Made by a program: the position numbers and the translations under genes. Positions 2,897 through 9,405 of a stretch of DNA of 45,426 nt are shown piece after piece; within the stretch, counting starts at the first letter, position 1; each line of letters starts with the position of its first letter. The notes under the pieces were generated by a model. That model saw only the letters and a list, made by a program, of their open reading frames with translations. It searched no databases and was not told the origin of the DNA. Source of the DNA: Pseudomonadota bacterium (GTDB taxonomy: Bacteria; Pseudomonadota; Gammaproteobacteria; Burkholderiales; Burkholderiaceae_C); assembly GCA_030538085.1 (NCBI GenBank), contig JAUNUR010000020.1, positions 1-45,426 on the forward strand, given 5' to 3'.

Positions 2897-3586
2897 CTAC
2901 AGCCGCGCCCACTGGCCCATCAGCCGCCCCGGATGCGGCACGGTGATCGTGCGGCCTCTGACCTGCAGCAGCCCGGACTGCTGCAGCTCCTGCAGGATGC
3001 GCGAGAAGTGCTCGGGCGTCAGGTTCAGGTGCGAGGCGATGGCGCGTTTGGTGGACGGCAGGGTGACGGTGAAGGGCGCCTCGGGGTCGTCGCAGCGACG
3101 CAGCAGCCAGGCGACGAAGCGCTCGGTGCCGTTGCCCAGCGCCTGCAGGGCCAGTTCCTGCACCAGGCTTTCGACCCGCTTTGATAGGCCGACGATGATG
3201 CCGCGCGCAAGCAGAGGGTTGCGCTCCAGTTCTTCGAACAAGGCCTGCTTGGGGATGTGCAGCAACAGCGCGTCGCTGGCGACCTCGGCCGTCACCACCG
3301 CGTCGTGGTCCAGAAAGGCCAGCGGCTCGGCGATGCTGTGGCCGGGGCCGGCGGTGCCGGTCAGGCGCGGCGTCCCTTTCGGCCCCAGGCCCAGCAGGCG
3401 AACCTGGCCGTACACGACCACGTACATGCCACCCAGCGGTTCGCCCCGGCGAAACACCTGCTCTCCGCGCTTGAACGCATGCCGCGTGGTGACGGCCGCC
3501 AGCCGTGCCAGCGTGGCCTTGTCGAGCGCGCGGAACAGGGGCAGGCGCGCCAGCAGGGTTTCGGGAGGGACTTCGCGCCGGGTCAT
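2897..3586 (-). CDS. Crp/Fnr family transcriptional regulator without Fe-S cysteines (Dnr/Nnr-like)
   Basis: A 229-residue regulator with an N-terminal cyclic-nucleotide-binding fold (about residues 15-135, with the RRGEPLGGMYVVVYGQVRLL strand-turn pattern) and a C-terminal winged helix (about 155-222). The recognition helix contains PEHFSR, which fits the E-x-x-S-R signature of FNR-class proteins that read TTGAT half-sites. The N-terminal half has no cysteines, so it cannot hold the [4Fe-4S] cluster of FNR; the Dnr/Nnr group, which senses nitric oxide, is the closest functional class by that criterion, but this is inference. It is the last gene of the minus-strand run that starts with the DnrO-like gene at 5920. 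It is separated from the FmdE-like gene by 141 bases holding a REP-type inverted pair, so it may have its own transcript. Confidence 0.85.
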   Translation of the reverse strand: MTRREVPPETLLARLPLFRALDKATLARLAAVTTRHAFKRGEQVFRRGEPLGGMYVVVYGQVRLLGLGPKGTPRLTGTAGPGHSIAEPLAFLDHDAVVTAEVASDALLLHIPKQALFEELERNPLLARGIIVGLSKRVESLVQELALQALGNGTERFVAWLLRRCDDPEAPFTVTLPSTKRAIASHLNLTPEHFSRILQELQQSGLLQVRGRTITVPHPGRLMGQWARL

Positions 3587-3635: not shown

Positions 3636-3715
3636 CTGTGGGAGCGGCCTTGGCCGTGATGGGCGTGTCGACTTGGCGCTGGGCGTTGCCATCGCGGGCA
3701 AGCCCGCTCCCACAG
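3636..3715. repeat. REP-type inverted pair, degenerate copy
   Basis: Left arm 3636-3663 and right arm 3688-3715 are imperfect inverted copies of a motif beginning TGTGGGAGCGG and ending with GCGATGG. The right arm is almost identical to the arms of the perfect pair at 11296-11378; the left arm has several substitutions. It lies between the FmdE-like gene and the regulator gene and could form a stable hairpin in their transcript. Such GTGGGAGCGGGCTTGCCCGC palindromes resemble REP sequences known best from Pseudomonas. Confidence 0.8.
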
Positions 3716-3727
3716 GGGAGCCGGCGC

Positions 3728-4330
3728 TCAGGCGGCGACCTCGACCCACTCCGGCGCAGCGGCAGGATCGGATATCTGCTCGACCCAGTCGCTCCAGGCT
3801 TGTGCGAAGGCTCGCCTGGCATCCTCGGTTGCATCGGGCGCCACGGCGGCGCGCAGGAGTTGCGTCAACTCGGCCGAGCGCGGCACTGGAAAGCCACCGC
3901 GCGTGTATTCGACCGACTGGCCGTTGTCCAGCCGCGTCAGGCGGATGTCGCCGCGCATTGGCACGCCGAAGGCCAGCAAGTCCTTGCGCCCGAAGCGCCC
4001 CGCCAGGCCCTTGAAGCCGCCAGCATTGGCGGCGCCCGTCACCAGCGACACGACGCTGGCGATCACGCCGGCCACGCCGTCGTCCAGTTGCTCGCGCAAT
4101 TCGACCCTGATCTCGCCCCGGCGCGGCGTGCCTTGCGGGTACAGGCGCGCCAGGGCATCGCGCGTCATCCGCCAGGCACCAGCCACGGTGGGGCAGGAGT
4201 GGCCGGTCAGTTTGACGGCGTCGAGGTAGCGGTATTGCAGCGTGCCGCCCTCGGCCGAACCCAGGGTTTCGGCCAGCGGGTCGGTCATCGTGATCGACGG
4301 CATCTGGTCGTAGTAGGCGGGCGTGTTCAT
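3728..4330 (-). CDS. FmdE-like metal-binding domain protein
   Basis: A 200-residue protein without a signal peptide. Near residue 45 it carries GHSCPTVAGAW, which fits the GHxCPxxxxG motif of the FmdE family (named after subunit E of formylmethanofuran dehydrogenase), where His and Cys bind a metal. The rest gives no clear domain beyond a conserved-looking central stretch with Gly-rich turns near residues 90-115. Nothing else of methanofuran metabolism is present, so the family name should not be read as a function. The ATG at 4330 is preceded by AGGAG at good spacing and overlaps the TGA of the S26 peptidase gene (ATGA), so the two are translationally coupled. A longer start at 4372 has no such support. 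A role as a metal or cofactor handling partner of the neighbouring exported protein is inference. Confidence 0.75.
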   Translation of the reverse strand: MNTPAYYDQMPSITMTDPLAETLGSAEGGTLQYRYLDAVKLTGHSCPTVAGAWRMTRDALARLYPQGTPRRGEIRVELREQLDDGVAGVIASVVSLVTGAANAGGFKGLAGRFGRKDLLAFGVPMRGDIRLTRLDNGQSVEYTRGGFPVPRSAELTQLLRAAVAPDATEDARRAFAQAWSDWVEQISDPAAAPEWVEVAA

Positions 4331-4770
4331 GATGGCTCCTGTGTTGCGAACGACAAACCACTCCGCGGCCACGACCAGCCCCGACCGATGACGTGTCCGA
4401 CGAGCGCCTCACGCGCGATGTAGGGCTGGCGCCAGCTTCGGCTGTCGCTGGAGGCGTCGCGGTGGTCGCCCAGCAGCAGGTAGTGGCCCGCCGGCACGTG
4501 GAAGGTGTGGGTGAAGACGGAGCGGCTGGCGTAGGGCTCGGCCAGCGGCTGGCCGTTGATGTGCACCTGGCCGCTCTTGATGGTCACGGTTTCCCCCGGC
4601 AGGCCGATAACGCGCTTGACCACGTGCTGACCCAGCTCGTGCGAATCGGCCACCACCACGTCACCCCGGCGCACCGGGGTGCGGCGCCACAGCCTGCGCG
4701 TCAGCGCCAGGGCACCACCCTGCAGCGCGGGGGCCATGGAGTGCGATTGCACGCGGGTGAGCCAGAACAT
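4327..4770 (-). CDS. Minimal S26 signal peptidase, SodX-like
   Basis: A 147-residue serine protease of the signal peptidase I family (S26). The catalytic Ser lies in SHSMAP near residue 9, the general-base Lys in VKRVIGLPGE near residue 53, and the conserved GDHRDASSDSR box near residue 101. It lacks the transmembrane anchors of LepB and is less than half the size of a typical proteobacterial LepB, matching the compact S26 enzymes annotated as nickel-type superoxide dismutase maturation proteases. The ATG at 4770 has a good GGGAG ribosome site. It follows the DUF6448 gene by 20 bases and overlaps the FmdE-like gene by four. Placement directly after an exported protein with a His-Cys-Asp mature end suggests a dedicated substrate, but this is inference. 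Confidence 0.87.
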   Translation of the reverse strand: MFWLTRVQSHSMAPALQGGALALTRRLWRRTPVRRGDVVVADSHELGQHVVKRVIGLPGETVTIKSGQVHINGQPLAEPYASRSVFTHTFHVPAGHYLLLGDHRDASSDSRSWRQPYIAREALVGHVIGRGWSWPRSGLSFATQEPS

Positions 4771-4790
4771 GGCGATGCTCCCTTGCCCGA

Positions 4791-5396
4791 TCAGTGGTGG
4801 CCGCAGCCACCGCCGTGGGCGGCGTGGCCGTGACCGTGGTGGTGGTCGTGGTCATGTCCCTCGGCGTATTTGAAGAAGGACACGTAGGCCTCCATGTAGG
4901 TGCGCGCGGCGGGCAGGTCGTTGTCGTCGAACTTCTTCAGCGCAATCGCCTTGTCGAAGCGCTTTTCCAGTTCCGGCCAGCGCTCGGCGTCGATCAGGCC
5001 GAGCAGCGGCTCGATGCTGCCACGCTCCAGCGCTTCGTCGGCGGCGCGCACCTGCGGTGGAACGGCGCTGCCGGCGGGCTTGATGCCGTCGTAACCCGCG
5101 CCTTCGCCCGCGCGGTGGATGCGCACCATGTTCTCCAGGAACCACTGCTCGGCCAGCAGGGCCGCTTCGCCGCCGACGGCGCGCACGCGCTGGGCGCGGT
5201 CGAAGGTGGCGCGCAGCTCGTCCTCGCCCTCGGACATCACCCATTTCAGCGCGATGTTGACGTTGCCCTGGCTCAGCGCGCGGCGGCCATCAATGACGGC
5301 GGGGCCGTCCGCCGTGTCGCAGTGCGCCGAGGCGGGGCGGATGACCAGGCGGGTGATCGACGCGGCCAGCGTGCGCAAGAAAGTGGTGAATGTCAT
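4791..5396 (-). CDS. DUF6448-type exported protein with His-Cys-Asp mature N-terminus and His-rich tail
   Basis: A 201-residue protein. Residues 1-24 form a weak signal peptide ending in ASA; cleavage there would leave His-Cys-Asp-Thr as the new N-terminus (His25, Cys26). The body is mainly helical by composition, with a conserved-looking IHRAGEG segment near residue 100. The last 25 residues are extremely His-rich (HDHDHHHGHGHAAHGGGCGHH pattern, here given in two parts: HDHDHHHGHGH, then GGGCGHH), typical of a metal-binding tail. I associate the N-terminal HCDTxDGP pattern with the DUF6448 family, whose function is not established to my knowledge. The ATG at 5396 has a strong AAGGAGAT ribosome site. 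It sits between the DnrO-like gene (35 bases upstream) and the S26 peptidase gene (20 bases downstream), so joint expression is likely. Confidence 0.82.
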   Translation of the reverse strand: MTFTTFLRTLAASITRLVIRPASAHCDTADGPAVIDGRRALSQGNVNIALKWVMSEGEDELRATFDRAQRVRAVGGEAALLAEQWFLENMVRIHRAGEGAGYDGIKPAGSAVPPQVRAADEALERGSIEPLLGLIDAERWPELEKRFDKAIALKKFDDNDLPAARTYMEAYVSFFKYAEGHDHDHHHGHGHAAHGGGCGHH

Positions 5397-5431
5397 GGCG
5401 ATCTCCTTCAGTGTTTGGTGGCGGGCGGGAT

Positions 5432-5920
5432 TCAATGTGCGATCAGGATGGCCCGGAAGCCGGGGTGGTCGAAGTAGACGGGGTACTGGTTGACGGCGTG
5501 CGTCACTTTCAGCAGGCCGTCCACGGGCTGGGTACCGGCTGTCTTGCCGTTCATGGCATCCACGCCCGCGCCGATCTCGGCGATCAGCCCATGCAATTGC
5601 TCGTCGGCGGCGGGCTCCAGCTTGCAGTTCTTCACGATGTCGGCCACTTGAAGCTCGATCTGGCCGGCCAGTTGCCTGTACTGATCGGCACTCAGCTTGC
5701 CGGCGTGGGCGGCGTCCAGCTTGGGGGCGACCAGGGCGCGGATGCCGTCCATGCCCTTGCGCAGCGGCGCGTCGGTGCCCCACTTCTGGCCCTGGTTCAG
5801 CGTTAGCTCCTGCGGCGCGCTGCCGTGGTCGTGGGCGGCCTTTTGCGCCAGGGCGGGCGTGCCCAGCGCCATCAGGGAGGCCATCGCGGTGGCGGCCAGG
5901 GTCCATTTGAATGCGTTCAT
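5432..5920 (-). CDS. Small exported helical protein, DnrO-like
   Basis: A 162-residue protein with a clear Sec signal peptide (residues 1-25, ending ALA before Gln-Lys-Ala-Ala-His). The mature part begins with a short His-containing segment (HDHG) and continues as a mostly helical domain with a single Cys (KNCKLEP) and a conserved-looking PVYFDHPGF near the end. From memory it resembles proteins annotated as DnrO in denitrifying betaproteobacteria; I know no proven function for them, and the name is tentative. The ATG at 5920 is preceded by GGAG at suitable spacing. It is the first gene of the run 5920-2897, so the promoter is expected in the 140 bases between it and the ecotin gene. Confidence 0.7.
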   Translation of the reverse strand: MNAFKWTLAATAMASLMALGTPALAQKAAHDHGSAPQELTLNQGQKWGTDAPLRKGMDGIRALVAPKLDAAHAGKLSADQYRQLAGQIELQVADIVKNCKLEPAADEQLHGLIAEIGAGVDAMNGKTAGTQPVDGLLKVTHAVNQYPVYFDHPGFRAILIAH

Positions 5921-6060
5921 TTCTTCATCTCCGTTGGGTTGCCACAGGCGTCCGTCGCCTGCATGAAAGAACGGAGTGGCGGGGTTTGAAGACCGTTCCG
6001 CCGAAGTTCTGGACCCTTAGCAAATATCAAGACGGCGGGCCGTCAGCGCACAGCCCGCGC

Positions 6061-6615
6061 CTATTTCACCAGGTTCCTGAGCTGGGCGGTGCGGCTGTCC
6101 AGCGTGCGCCAGCGGAACTCGAACCCCTCGGGCACGAACACCACCACCGGCACTCGGCTGTTGTAGGGCACCAGCAGGGGCTCGGCGCCGACGAACTGCC
6201 GGCGGCGGCTGTCGTCGGGGCAGCCCATGCGCGTGCTCATCACCTCGCCCCGGCTGGCGAACACCCAGTAGGCGTAGGGGTGGCCCGGCACCTCGCGCTG
6301 CGAGAACATGCCGTCCATGCCATGGCGGTTGCAGTCCACCGGCATCGTCTTGCCGCCCTGCAACTCCACGCGGTGCAGTTGCTCGTCCTCCAGCGGCGGC
6401 AGCTTGACCACGTGGCGCTGGTGGCCGGGCAGACTGGCCGGGAAGGCGGCCAGCGCGTCGCCCGTGGCGATGGGGCGCGGCGCGCTGGTGCCCGGCGCGG
6501 GCGTCGTGGATGGGGTGGTTTGGGCGCAGGCGGCCAGGCACAGGGCGGCAAGCAGCGGCGCCGCCAGTCGCGGGGCCAGACGGTGGGCGGGGCGGGGAAT
6601 TGAAAGCGCGTGCAT
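6061..6615 (-). CDS. eco: Ecotin family serine protease inhibitor, predicted lipoprotein, Arg at P1
   Basis: A 184-residue protein with a lipoprotein signal peptide: the lipobox LAAC places the acylated Cys at residue 30, followed by a Thr/Pro-rich spacer to about residue 55. Residues 58-180 match ecotin throughout, including VDCN (Cys95) and GCPD (Cys132), the two cysteines that form the ecotin disulfide. The reactive loop reads MSTRMGC where E. coli ecotin has STMMAC, so the P1 residue is Arg129 rather than Met. Ecotins inhibit trypsin-fold serine proteases, classically host enzymes. E. coli ecotin is a soluble periplasmic protein; a membrane-anchored form is unusual. It is read from the 206-base intergenic region shared with the divergent MFS gene. 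Confidence 0.9.
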   Translation of the reverse strand: MHALSIPRPAHRLAPRLAAPLLAALCLAACAQTTPSTTPAPGTSAPRPIATGDALAAFPASLPGHQRHVVKLPPLEDEQLHRVELQGGKTMPVDCNRHGMDGMFSQREVPGHPYAYWVFASRGEVMSTRMGCPDDSRRRQFVGAEPLLVPYNSRVPVVVFVPEGFEFRWRTLDSRTAQLRNLVK

Positions 6616-6821: not shown

Positions 6822-8075
6822 ATGTCCGTTACCGATTCAACTTCCCCCCCGCCCCCCGCCGTCCACCGCATGACGCCCGACGAACGCCGCGCCAGCCTGT
6901 CGCTGGCGGGTATCTTCGCGCTGCGCATGCTGGGGCTGTTCCTGGTGCTGCCGGTGTTCACGCTGGAGGCGGCGCGCCTGCCGGGCGGCAACGATCCGGC
7001 GCTGGTGGGGCTGGCGATGGGCATCTATGGCCTCACGCAGGCCGTGATGCAGGTGCCGCTGGGGCTGGCGTCCGACCGCGTGGGGCGCAAGAAGGTGATC
7101 GTGCTGGGCTTGATCGTGTTCGCGCTCGGCAGCATGGTCGCCGCGCTGGCGGGCAGCGTGCCCATGCTGATCGTGGGCCGCGCCATCCAGGGCGCGGGCG
7201 CGGTGTCGGCGGCGGTGACGGCGCTGCTGGCCGACCAGACGCGCGACGAGGTGCGCACCAAGGGCATGGCGCTGATCGGCATCAGCATCGCGGCGATGTT
7301 CGCGCTGTCGTTAGTGGCAGCGCCGCCGCTGGCCGCCGCCATCGGGCTGTCGGGGCTGTTCTGGATCACCACCGCGCTCACGCTGGCCGGCATTGCCGTG
7401 GTGCTGTGGCTGACGCCGCCCGAACCGGCCAAGCAGGCCGACGTGCCGCGCGGCCGCCTGGCCGACGTGTGGCTGCACCCGCACCTGTGGCGGCTGGACC
7501 TGGGCGTGTTCGTGCTGCACACGGTGCAGATGGCGATGTGGGTGGTGGTGCCCGCGCTGCTGGTGCAGGCCGGGCTGCCTAAGGCGCAGCACTGGCACGT
7601 CTATTTGCCGGCGGTGCTGGCCTCGTTCCTCATGCTGGGCGGGTTGTTCGCCGCCGAGCGGCGTGGCGCGCTGCGTGGCGTGCTGCGCACCGGCATCGCG
7701 CTGCTGTTCATCGTGCAACTGGCCTTGCTGCTGCTGGCGCCGCGCGCGCCGGGGCTGTGGACGCTGGGGGCGCTGCTGCTGTTCTTCTTCATTGCCTTCA
7801 ACCTGCTGGAGGCCACGCAGCCCAGTTTGATCTCGCGCCTGGCGCCCGCCGATGCGCGCGGCGCGGCGCTGGGGGTCTACAACACGCTGCAGTCGCTGGG
7901 GTTGTTCGCTGGCGGCGCTTTAGGCGGCTGGCTGGTCAAGGCCGGGGGGCCGCAGGCGGTGCTGGTGGCAACGTCGGTGCTGGCGCTGCTGTGGCTGCTG
8001 CTGGGCTGGGGGCAGATGATGCCGGCGCCGAAGGCATCGGCGACGGCTGCGCCATCTGCTGCTCGGGCGTCCTAG
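6822..8075 (+). CDS. MFS transporter, YajR/drug-efflux type
   Basis: A 417-residue integral membrane protein with about 12 hydrophobic segments. After transmembrane segment 2 it carries [11 protein letters not shown], the MFS motif A (GxxxDRxGRR/K), and a second MFS-like pattern [16 protein letters not shown] around segments 4-5 typical of the drug:H+ antiporter group. It resembles YajR-like members but lacks their C-terminal cytoplasmic domain. Substrate cannot be predicted. The ATG at 6822 has no good ribosome site; the in-frame ATG 48 bases downstream (MTPDERR) is the main alternative. The 3' end overlaps the convergent ClC gene by 140 bases, and here the overlap encodes its last membrane segment. 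Confidence 0.9.
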
Positions 8076-9405
8076 CCGTGGCATCGGGCGCCAGGCGCGC
8101 CACCAGGTTGTCGGCAATCGTCGCGTACAGCGGCCGGCTGACCATGCGCGACACCAGGCTGGCCAGCAGCGCGCAGGCCATCAGGCCCAGCACCATGGCG
8201 TAGCCGTCCACCATCTCCATCACGATGATCATGGCGGTGATGGGCGTCTGCGTCATCGCCGCCAGAAAGCCCGCCATGCCCAGCGCGATCAGCACCGTGG
8301 CGTATTCGGGCGCCAGCAGCTGCGCCACATCGTGCCCCAGGCTGGCGCCAATCGACAGGCTGGGCGTGAACAGCCCGCCCGGCACGCCGGACCACGCCGA
8401 CAGCCAGGTGGTGACGAACTTCAGCAGCGTCCACAGCAGCGGCCAGTTGGCCGCTTCGCCCGCCAGCAGGCTGCGCGTGTGCGCGTGCCCGCCGCCCACG
8501 GCGCTGGCCTGCGTCAGGATGCCGATCACCGCCACCGCCAGTCCGCAGGCGGCGGCGAAGCGGATGGGGTGCAGGCGCCGGAAGGCGCTGATGCGGTCCC
8601 GGCCACCGAACAGCGACACGATGAGCAGGCGCGCGAACAGCCCGCCAACCAGTCCGCAGACCAGCGCCAGCGTCATCCCCGGCAGCAGCACGCCCCATTC
8701 CACCCGCTCGATGCGGATGCGGCCGAAGTACGACAGGTTGCCGAATGCCGCCACCGCCACCAGGCCGGCCATCACGATGGCGCCCAGCATCAGGCCGGAC
8801 GAGCGCGTCTCCAGCCGGCGCGACAGCTCCTCGATGGCGAACACGATGCCGCCCAGCGGCGTGTTGAAGGCCGCCGCGATGCCGGCCGCGGCGCCCGCCA
8901 CCAGCAATTCACGCGCGCTGATGCCCGAGCGCGGCGACAGAAAGCGCCGCGCCGCATACATCACGCCCGCCGCGATCTGTACGGACGGCCCCTGGCGCCC
9001 GATCGACAGCCCCGCCAGCAAACCGCCGGCCACCGCCAGCGCCTTGGCCAGCGAAATCCGGATCGACACCAGCGCCGAGCGCGAAGGCGCATCCAGCCGC
9101 GGGTCCAGCGCCGCCAGCGCCTGCGGTGGCCCCGAGCCGCCCGCGCCGGGGGCGAAGCGCGTGGTGGCCCACACGATCAGCGCCGTCAGCGCCGGCGTCC
9201 ACAGCAGTGGCCACCAGCGCCAGCCGGCCTGCATCGACCTGAAAGTCTGCTCGGCCGCGTCGGCCAGCAGCGTGAACAGCACCACCGACAGGCCCGCCAG
9301 CAGCGCGAACAGGCCGACGACGAAGCGGTCGATCCAGATGCGCGGGTCGCTCACCTCGCTGCGTACCTGGTCCAGGAAATCCGGATCGCTCTTCATGCGG
9401 GGCAT
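7936..9405 (-). CDS. ClC family chloride channel/transporter, gating Glu replaced by Gln
   Basis: A 489-residue ClC protein with the expected run of hydrophobic helices. The anion-site motifs are GSGPPQ (residues 90-95) for GSGIP and GRQGPSVQ (136-143) for GREGP. The glutamate that gates and couples protons in ClC antiporters is therefore Gln138. The inner acidic pair is present in FAIEEL, and the central tyrosine in RPLYATI. The last 45 or so residues are a Pro/Ala/Ser-rich tail with no family counterpart; they lie antisense to the last membrane segment of the MFS gene. The start is uncertain: TTG or ATG codons at 9429, 9405 and 9396 are possible and none has a strong ribosome site. Confidence 0.9.

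Follow-up and report, generated by a model that had tools for sequence, protein, structure and literature searches.

The DNA analysed here is a stretch of 45,426 nucleotides (nt) from a Pseudomonadota bacterium (contig JAUNUR010000020.1; the whole stretch is called the window below), and its minus strand carries an entire cluster running from p162 through a DUF6448 protein, an S26-type peptidase and an FmdE-like protein to a Crp/Fnr regulator (Table 1). The gap between the DUF6448 and S26 genes is 20 nt, and the stop codon of the S26 gene overlaps the start codon of the FmdE-like gene by 4 nt (ATGA). A preliminary description of this DNA had proposed that the DUF6448 protein is exported and that the S26 peptidase bares a His-Cys-Asp (HCD) at its N-terminus, in parallel with the nickel superoxide dismutase SodN (NiSOD) and its protease SodX. 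The central part of this guess passes its own tests in the window's sub-clade, except that the protein there is probably cytosolic.

The DUF6448 protein matches PF20046 over its full length, with 180.8 bits against a gathering cut-off of 27. Its precursor reads MTFTTFLRTLAASITRLVIRPASA|HCDTADGPAV (junction RPASA|HCDTADGP) and ends in the His-rich tail already described. Two Arg stand within the last nine residues of the leader, whose longest uncharged run is 7, compared with 19-25 in seven S26-bearing relatives with hydrophobic leaders. Conservation of HCD directly after the predicted cleavage site, which had been suggested as a check, was found across the family: over 95 aligned rows, and numbering from the mature N-terminus, the counts are 93 for H1, 94 for C2 and 95 for D3. 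The alignment left out near-duplicates (L053, L054, L060 and L074 in our numbering of loci), two loci from the same stretch or genome as others (L162 and L165, matching L157 and L006) and three that are broken or cut (L009, L046 and L067; in L009 the DUF6448 frame is broken in that assembly), while L016 has no leader on its contig. The PF20046 profile begins after HCD, and all 28 distinct matches from four unbiased samples, drawn by phylum, family, class and order, still carry the motif. This count avoids the bias of our species-genome scan, which returned 68 DUF6448 loci from many phyla with one search pattern that itself contained AHCD. The (-3,-1) rule, as we defined it, fits before His in 90 of 90 leader-bearing rows, with Ala at -1 in 86. 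Further invariant or near-invariant positions are H70 (95 rows), E74 (94) and R71, G75, G7 and P8 (95 each). At position 6, where the window has Asp, the five commonest residues are D (77), E (6), G (4), N (4) and V (1), with no Cys among them. H1 is replaced in two rows, L071 (N) and L066 (SGD); the latter, at 8046-8555 of a Verrucomicrobia metagenome-assembled genome, is a divergent copy that lacks H1, C2 and E74, keeps the other invariant residues and has a NorB gene about 3 kb away. When the PDB was searched with the family profile, a designed repeat protein and one weak match to a TPR protein were the only hits.

The S26 peptidase scores 104.6 bits against the signal peptidase I profile TIGR02227 (cut-off 47), but 32.8 bits against the SodX profile TIGR02754, which is under the cut-off of 63.25. 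Its catalytic features can be read as Ser11 (in SHSMAP), a Lys in VVKRVIGLPGE, and GDHRDASSDSR. The Ser is preceded by ten residues and no N-terminal hydrophobic segment; its codon lies 50 nt past the DUF6448 stop and no hydrophobic stretch intervenes, so that an N-terminal membrane anchor is absent. The enzyme is thus, as first described, compact, catalytically complete, unanchored and directly downstream of DUF6448. In a tree of 40 S26 domains, built without the loci from the window-family and Nocardioides-order samples, SodX forms one clade (support 99) and eight soluble DUF6448-linked peptidases form another (97), which the anchored S26 of Halomonas L012 joins (94). Compared with both profiles, as had been proposed, the S26 of the window is LepB-type and not SodX: its score misses the SodX cut-off, and in the tree it falls outside the SodX clade. 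It shares with signal peptidase I (LepB) the catalytic boxes and a score over the family cut-off; unlike LepB, DUF6448-linked S26 peptidases are unanchored in 18 of 25 pairs and tied to one neighbouring substrate. The window's genome encodes LepB in addition to the S26 of the cluster, and each of nine S26-bearing genomes searched (9/9) holds at least one further S26 match for house-keeping. A literature search for soluble dedicated S26 peptidases found nothing.

Table 1. Features of the cluster and its surroundings, in window coordinates
Feature	Position	Strand	Evidence
p162, first gene of the cluster	5432..5920	-	no Pfam or NCBIfam match
DUF6448 protein, 201 aa	4791..5396	-	PF20046, E 2e-53; alignment of relatives
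Leader peptide MTFTTFLRTLAASITRLVIRPASA, DUF6448 residues 1-24, without hydrophobic core	5325..5396	-	(-3,-1) rule fits before His
Predicted mature N-terminus H25-C26-D27 of the DUF6448 protein	codons 5324-5316	-	sequence and relatives
Soluble S26 (LepB-type) peptidase, catalytic Ser11	4327..4770	-	PF10502, E 1.2e-29; TIGR02227 over cut-off; TIGR02754 below; tree; co-occurrence
FmdE-like protein, accessory	3728..4330	-	PF02663, E 0.008, below cut-off
Crp/Fnr regulator, DNR-like, downstream end of the cluster	2897..3586	-	best PDB match 3dkw, E 5.4e-25
TTGATATTTGCTAA, Crp/Fnr-like half palindrome 5' of p162	6017..6030	-	weak match with 2 mismatches to TTGAYNNNNRTCAA; comparable site in L004 and L009

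The pairing of the two genes extends well beyond the window. Profile searches of open reading frames of at least 70 aa in L001-L079, L116 and L117 detected S26 in 12 loci (L001, L004-L009, L011, L012, L038, L074 and L075), where it always immediately follows DUF6448; the other loci of that set gave none. In the unbiased set the peptidase is directly downstream in 17 of 28 loci (most flanks 1.5 kb). Over all loci the pair recurs in three bacterial phyla. The co-occurrence anticipated by the preliminary description therefore holds for part of the family and not for the whole of it. Because both the HCD motif and the S26 neighbour recur far outside the source genome, their association in the window is not due to chance.

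Leader type and peptidase type are matched. Once repeats were removed, 25 S26-bearing loci divided into 18 with an anchor-less S26 and a short non-hydrophobic leader, and seven with an anchored S26 and a hydrophobic leader, with no mismatches; the window's DUF6448 protein belongs to the branch with S26 and non-hydrophobic leaders. Leaders in the soluble pairs are 16-24 residues long, and their longest uncharged run is 4-12; the DUF6448 stop lies 29-58 nt before the Ser codon (240 nt in L009, with its broken frame), a distance too short for a membrane segment unless it lay within the overlapping gene. The anchored pairs place the Ser codon 95-284 nt downstream with a hydrophobic segment before it, and their leaders have uncharged runs of 19-25. 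The longest uncharged run separates the classes within these 25 loci, whereas in the whole set some hydrophobic Sec leaders also show runs of 9-14 (L020, L026, L027, L029, L032 and L067); maximum hydropathy alone fails to separate them, as some Sec leaders are equally low. LepB should be out of reach for a leader that has no hydrophobic core; nevertheless such a leader retains its cut site precisely in the loci that encode a soluble S26, an argument that carries more weight than the number of matched loci. Taken together, the results point to an S26 that probably serves the DUF6448 protein as its dedicated leader peptidase. Since the leader in the window lacks a hydrophobic core and its S26 lacks an anchor, the DUF6448 protein there is probably cytosolic: HCD does follow the predicted cut, as first proposed, but the leader does not look like a signal for export.

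Seven relatives (L087, L088, L169-L172 and L175) have no leader and all begin MPP-HCDSLDGPVV; S26 was found in 0/7 of them within the flanks examined (over 16 kb in two, about 1.5 kb on each side in the others). The conserved Pro-Pro before HCD suggests either trimming or a tolerated cap.

The resemblance to SodN and SodX lies in the layout. The SodN preprotein is described, in parts of two reports, as processed by a cognate peptidase (PMC8346466, PMC3919588). Both systems comprise adjacent genes, a short non-hydrophobic leader ending in xxA|HCD, a soluble S26-type protease and a predicted mature N-terminal His-Cys-Asp. The 29 NiSOD leaders that we collected have 7-23 residues and uncharged runs of 3-11, the same style as the DUF6448 leaders of the soluble pairs. 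To our knowledge, SodN/SodX is the only known case of a dedicated S26 protease that bares an N-terminal metal hook. The differences are these: the DUF6448-linked S26 is LepB-type, longer than SodX and in a clade of its own, and the DUF6448 protein lacks Cys6 and has no detectable homology to SodN beyond HCD. The NiSOD hook motif is HCDxPCG. It was seen in 29 NiSODs, and its second cysteine is absent from the window's protein, for which the Sod_Ni profile gave no match and PF20046 was the sole match; this agrees with the earlier statement that the protein is not SodN itself. NiSOD is also encoded in 3 of 23 DUF6448 genomes searched (Nocardioides and Nostocoides). By analogy, then, the SodN/SodX layout is matched, as had been claimed, while common descent is not supported by sequence. 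DUF6448/S26 appears to work like SodN/SodX without being a member of it, and the cutting itself is a prediction.

The best signal of physiological context, absent from the preliminary description, comes from neighbouring genes. The Pelobacter plasmid pPRO1 has a single run of genes in which nrfA, hcp, ric and flavorubredoxin come before DUF6448, interspersed with genes for 4Fe-4S, HPP and PAS proteins. Using tblastn with annotated seeds, we found near DUF6448 Hcp (L015, L035, L039, L042, L062 and L079), flavodiiron protein (L015, L029, L043, L067 and L079), qNorB-type NorB (L029, L033, L043 and L066) and Ric (L021, L041, L043, L068, L079, four Halomonas loci at 25-29% identity, and Tetragenococcus L011, L074 and L077). 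At least one of these neighbours is present in 21 of the 79 loci L001-L079, repeats included. Hcp lies in the examined stretch of 5 of 47 loci against 0.08 expected, the background being 21 genes over cut-off in 47 genomes. The window's Crp/Fnr regulator found its best match among 41 PDB sequences in 3dkw, the nitric-oxide regulator DNR. Within the 450 nt preceding the HCD codon, 14 of 25 S26-bearing loci have a perfect TTGAY-N4-RTCAA box, where about 0.44 would be expected from 42 sites in the 1.08 Mb of all loci scanned; among the S26-less loci, 3 of 72 have one. The HcpR box is given as wyTTGACnnnnGTCAArw and the DNR box as CTTGATnnnnATCAAG in the part of PMC1274295 drawn on here. The TTGAC-N4-GTCAA and CTTGAT-N4-ATCAAG boxes, the DNR-like regulator and the hcp, ric and norB neighbours are shared with the HcpR/DNR-controlled nitric-oxide response of that paper; DUF6448 is not mentioned in that part of it, and control of DUF6448 by such a regulator is a prediction. 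The neighbours, the regulator and the boxes hint at nitric-oxide or N-oxide stress.

These observations can be combined in one mechanism. The S26 peptidase would act in the cytosol, removing the leader of the DUF6448 precursor by a cut after Ala-Ser-Ala and thereby freeing the N-terminal His-Cys-Asp; His1-Cys2 would then join His70 and Glu74, of the HRxxE stretch, in a metal site, with the His-rich tail perhaps helping metal loading; and the protein would serve in responding, under Crp/Fnr control, to nitric oxide or other N-oxides. Other branches would reach the same mature N-terminus by a Sec signal peptide (presumably cut by LepB), by a hydrophobic leader whose cognate S26 is anchored in the membrane, or with no leader at all (MPP-HCD). 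From their conservation, H1, C2, H70 and E74 are candidate ligands of the putative metal site, a reading supported by L066, in which E74 has been lost along with H1 and C2. Nickel is suggested by analogy, and iron or copper would be equally possible. We hold the joint reading, from dedicated soluble peptidase to metal site and N-oxide response, with moderate confidence. More tentatively, and short of calling it probable, we envisage a second, independently evolved N-terminal metal-site system, in which small proteins unrelated to SodN use a cleavage-born His-Cys-Asp together with HRxxE to act on nitric oxide or a related N-oxide, and in which the cognate S26 maturase lost or gained its anchor as the substrate's leader changed, the protein shifting between cytosol and envelope.

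Several observations weigh against this picture. The match between leader and S26 type rests on few evolutionary events: the best tree has three changes of each, which coincide in the same rows, only one pair of changes lies on well-supported branches, and a sign test is uninformative. Nor are the 25 loci independent, as L163 and L178 come from one genome and L159-L161 from one genus. The S26 peptidases of L011 and L075 (Bacillota) group apart from the other DUF6448-linked ones, pairing together (99) among LepB-type enzymes where deep support is poor. The MPP group is the strongest caution against assuming that His1 needs a free amine: it keeps HCD behind three residues, so the free alpha-amine may be unneeded unless aminopeptidases trim the end. 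As to context, the background rate covers Hcp and not the other nitric-oxide genes; Hcp, Ric, flavodiiron protein and NorB occur in 0/7 soluble-S26 loci with long flanks (L004-L009 and L038); and such neighbours fall nearly all in the S26-less branch, the anchored-S26 loci contributing only L011 with a short Ric-like gene. Ric was looked for in the window's genome and not found. PAS/sensor proteins (18 loci), ABC ATPases (14) and an AraC regulator (13), which are among the commonest neighbour clusters, are unspecific, and 11 of 25 S26-bearing loci have no perfect box, including the window, which has a poor version 5' of p162.

Other explanations account for parts of the same evidence. The copper histidine brace is known from LPMO and CopC, and in a DUF6448 version of it His1 (amine and ring) and His70 would hold copper with Cys2 as an extra ligand, implying copper handling in place of nickel or iron. 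Secreted relatives with AxA|H cleavage sites and the invariance of H70 would suit such a site, as would the heavy-metal P-type ATPases that plasmids of Aerococcus and Tetragenococcus encode close to DUF6448, a neighbour cluster resembling such an ATPase by eye in seven loci (L007, L011, L015, L052, L074, L075 and L077), and a copper chaperone and metal ATPase near a relative of p162. We nevertheless regard it as rather unlikely: the conserved C2 and E74 have no place in the brace as known, and the MPP group would be without the free amine. The metal-gene neighbours, noted without a background rate, leave the copper context neither established nor dismissed. It is also conceivable that no metal is involved and that Cys2, present in 94 of 95 rows and flanked by a basic and an acidic residue in His-Cys-Asp, is nitrosated or serves as a redox thiol in nitric-oxide stress, the cut merely freeing or exposing it. 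The nitric-oxide gene neighbourhoods agree with this, but the invariant H70, the near-invariant E74, the joint loss of E74 with H1 and C2 in L066 and the position of the motif right at the N-terminus would go unexplained, and we think such chemistry quite unlikely.

Two further explanations concern the peptidase and its origin. If the S26 were a general or unrelated enzyme that hitch-hikes in the operon, with HCD kept for folding only, the many family loci examined without S26, which are the majority, would be accounted for. We judge this improbable in view of the position of S26 as the next gene downstream, the agreement between anchor type and leader type in all 25 loci, the other S26 available for house-keeping in 9/9 genomes, and the lack of a nearby S26 where the leader is absent. 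Descent of the DUF6448 protein from a nickel superoxide dismutase or a relative of its fold, with SodX-like maturation, would explain the HCD, the short leader in NiSOD style and the S26 neighbour at once. We consider this very improbable, because Cys6 and any Sod_Ni match are missing, hhalign of DUF6448 against NiSOD profiles gave 0.5% probability (E 0.12) over the N-terminal 37 columns only, and the soluble S26 clade scores below the SodX cut-off and stands apart from SodX.

If the preferred reading of a cytosolic, S26-made metal site is correct, this second pair, on an unrelated protein, would mean that N-terminal metal sites made by S26 peptidases arose more than once. It would also give a function to DUF6448, a Pfam family so far without one. 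The natural series of Sec-secreted, anchored-protease, soluble-protease and leaderless forms is suited to asking why the N-terminus must be freed, and the two-gene system is directly testable in E. coli.

The DUF6448 family is rare and scattered. Sampling the phylum of the window turned up 3 positive genomes among 349, and sampling its family 6 among 399, totals that each include the window's own genome. For a Nocardioides genome (G353) the corresponding figures are 3 of 394 in its class and 17 of 391 in its order, again with that genome included in each. Among 47 plasmid records with DUF6448, 35 are typed conjugative and 21 are from Sinorhizobium, the others coming from Klebsiella, Salmonella and further enterobacteria; a scan of viral contigs, which reaches close relatives only, found none. 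DUF6448 lies beside an AraC regulator on a mobilizable Salmonella plasmid (L072) and a conjugative Serratia plasmid (L078), and in the former it is preceded by ferric-reductase-like and PepSY genes and followed by phosphonate/phosphite genes. LysM is matched by 2 of 64 members, which from their long tails are the Bacillota proteins of L010 and L011, and these may be held in the cell wall. One genome of the window's family (L157) has two tandem DUF6448 genes; in the product of one, Gly stands at -1 after a lengthy N-terminal stretch, so that its cut position is uncertain. A literature search for DUF6448 or PF20046 found no paper with either term.

The FmdE-like protein, which the preliminary description had made a partner coupled to the protease, does overlap the S26 gene, but its PF02663 match (16.6 bits, residues 43-86) falls below the gathering cut-off of 22.9 and it is not part of the core. 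It stands beside DUF6448 only in the window and L009, and we rejected a family-wide link on the grounds that these are the only two loci. Some of its relatives are annotated as FmdE family, among them one on an Azospirillum plasmid between nirK and hemerythrin, beside genes read as a nor operon. By eye, another relative lies within an apparent iron-siderophore uptake operon (TonB receptor, binding protein, permease and ATPase) in a Neisseria gonorrhoeae record (L125), and one in Paracoccus denitrificans (L124) is near a cupin-like gene, an ABC transporter and an NnrS-looking protein.

The first gene of the cluster, p162, appears by eye to encode an ordinary Sec signal peptide and is also found beside DUF6448 in L004, L009, L053 and L159-L161. 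The name dnrO, considered for it, was dropped after a literature search gave unrelated papers only. Directly upstream of the cluster, on the minus strand at 6061-6615, lies an ecotin-like protein (PF03974, E 3e-35) with a lipoprotein-like signal by eye. Between the FmdE-like and regulator genes, at 3636-3715, a REP-like inverted repeat (gtgggagcggccttggcc ... gcgggcaagcccgctcccac) was likewise recognised by eye.

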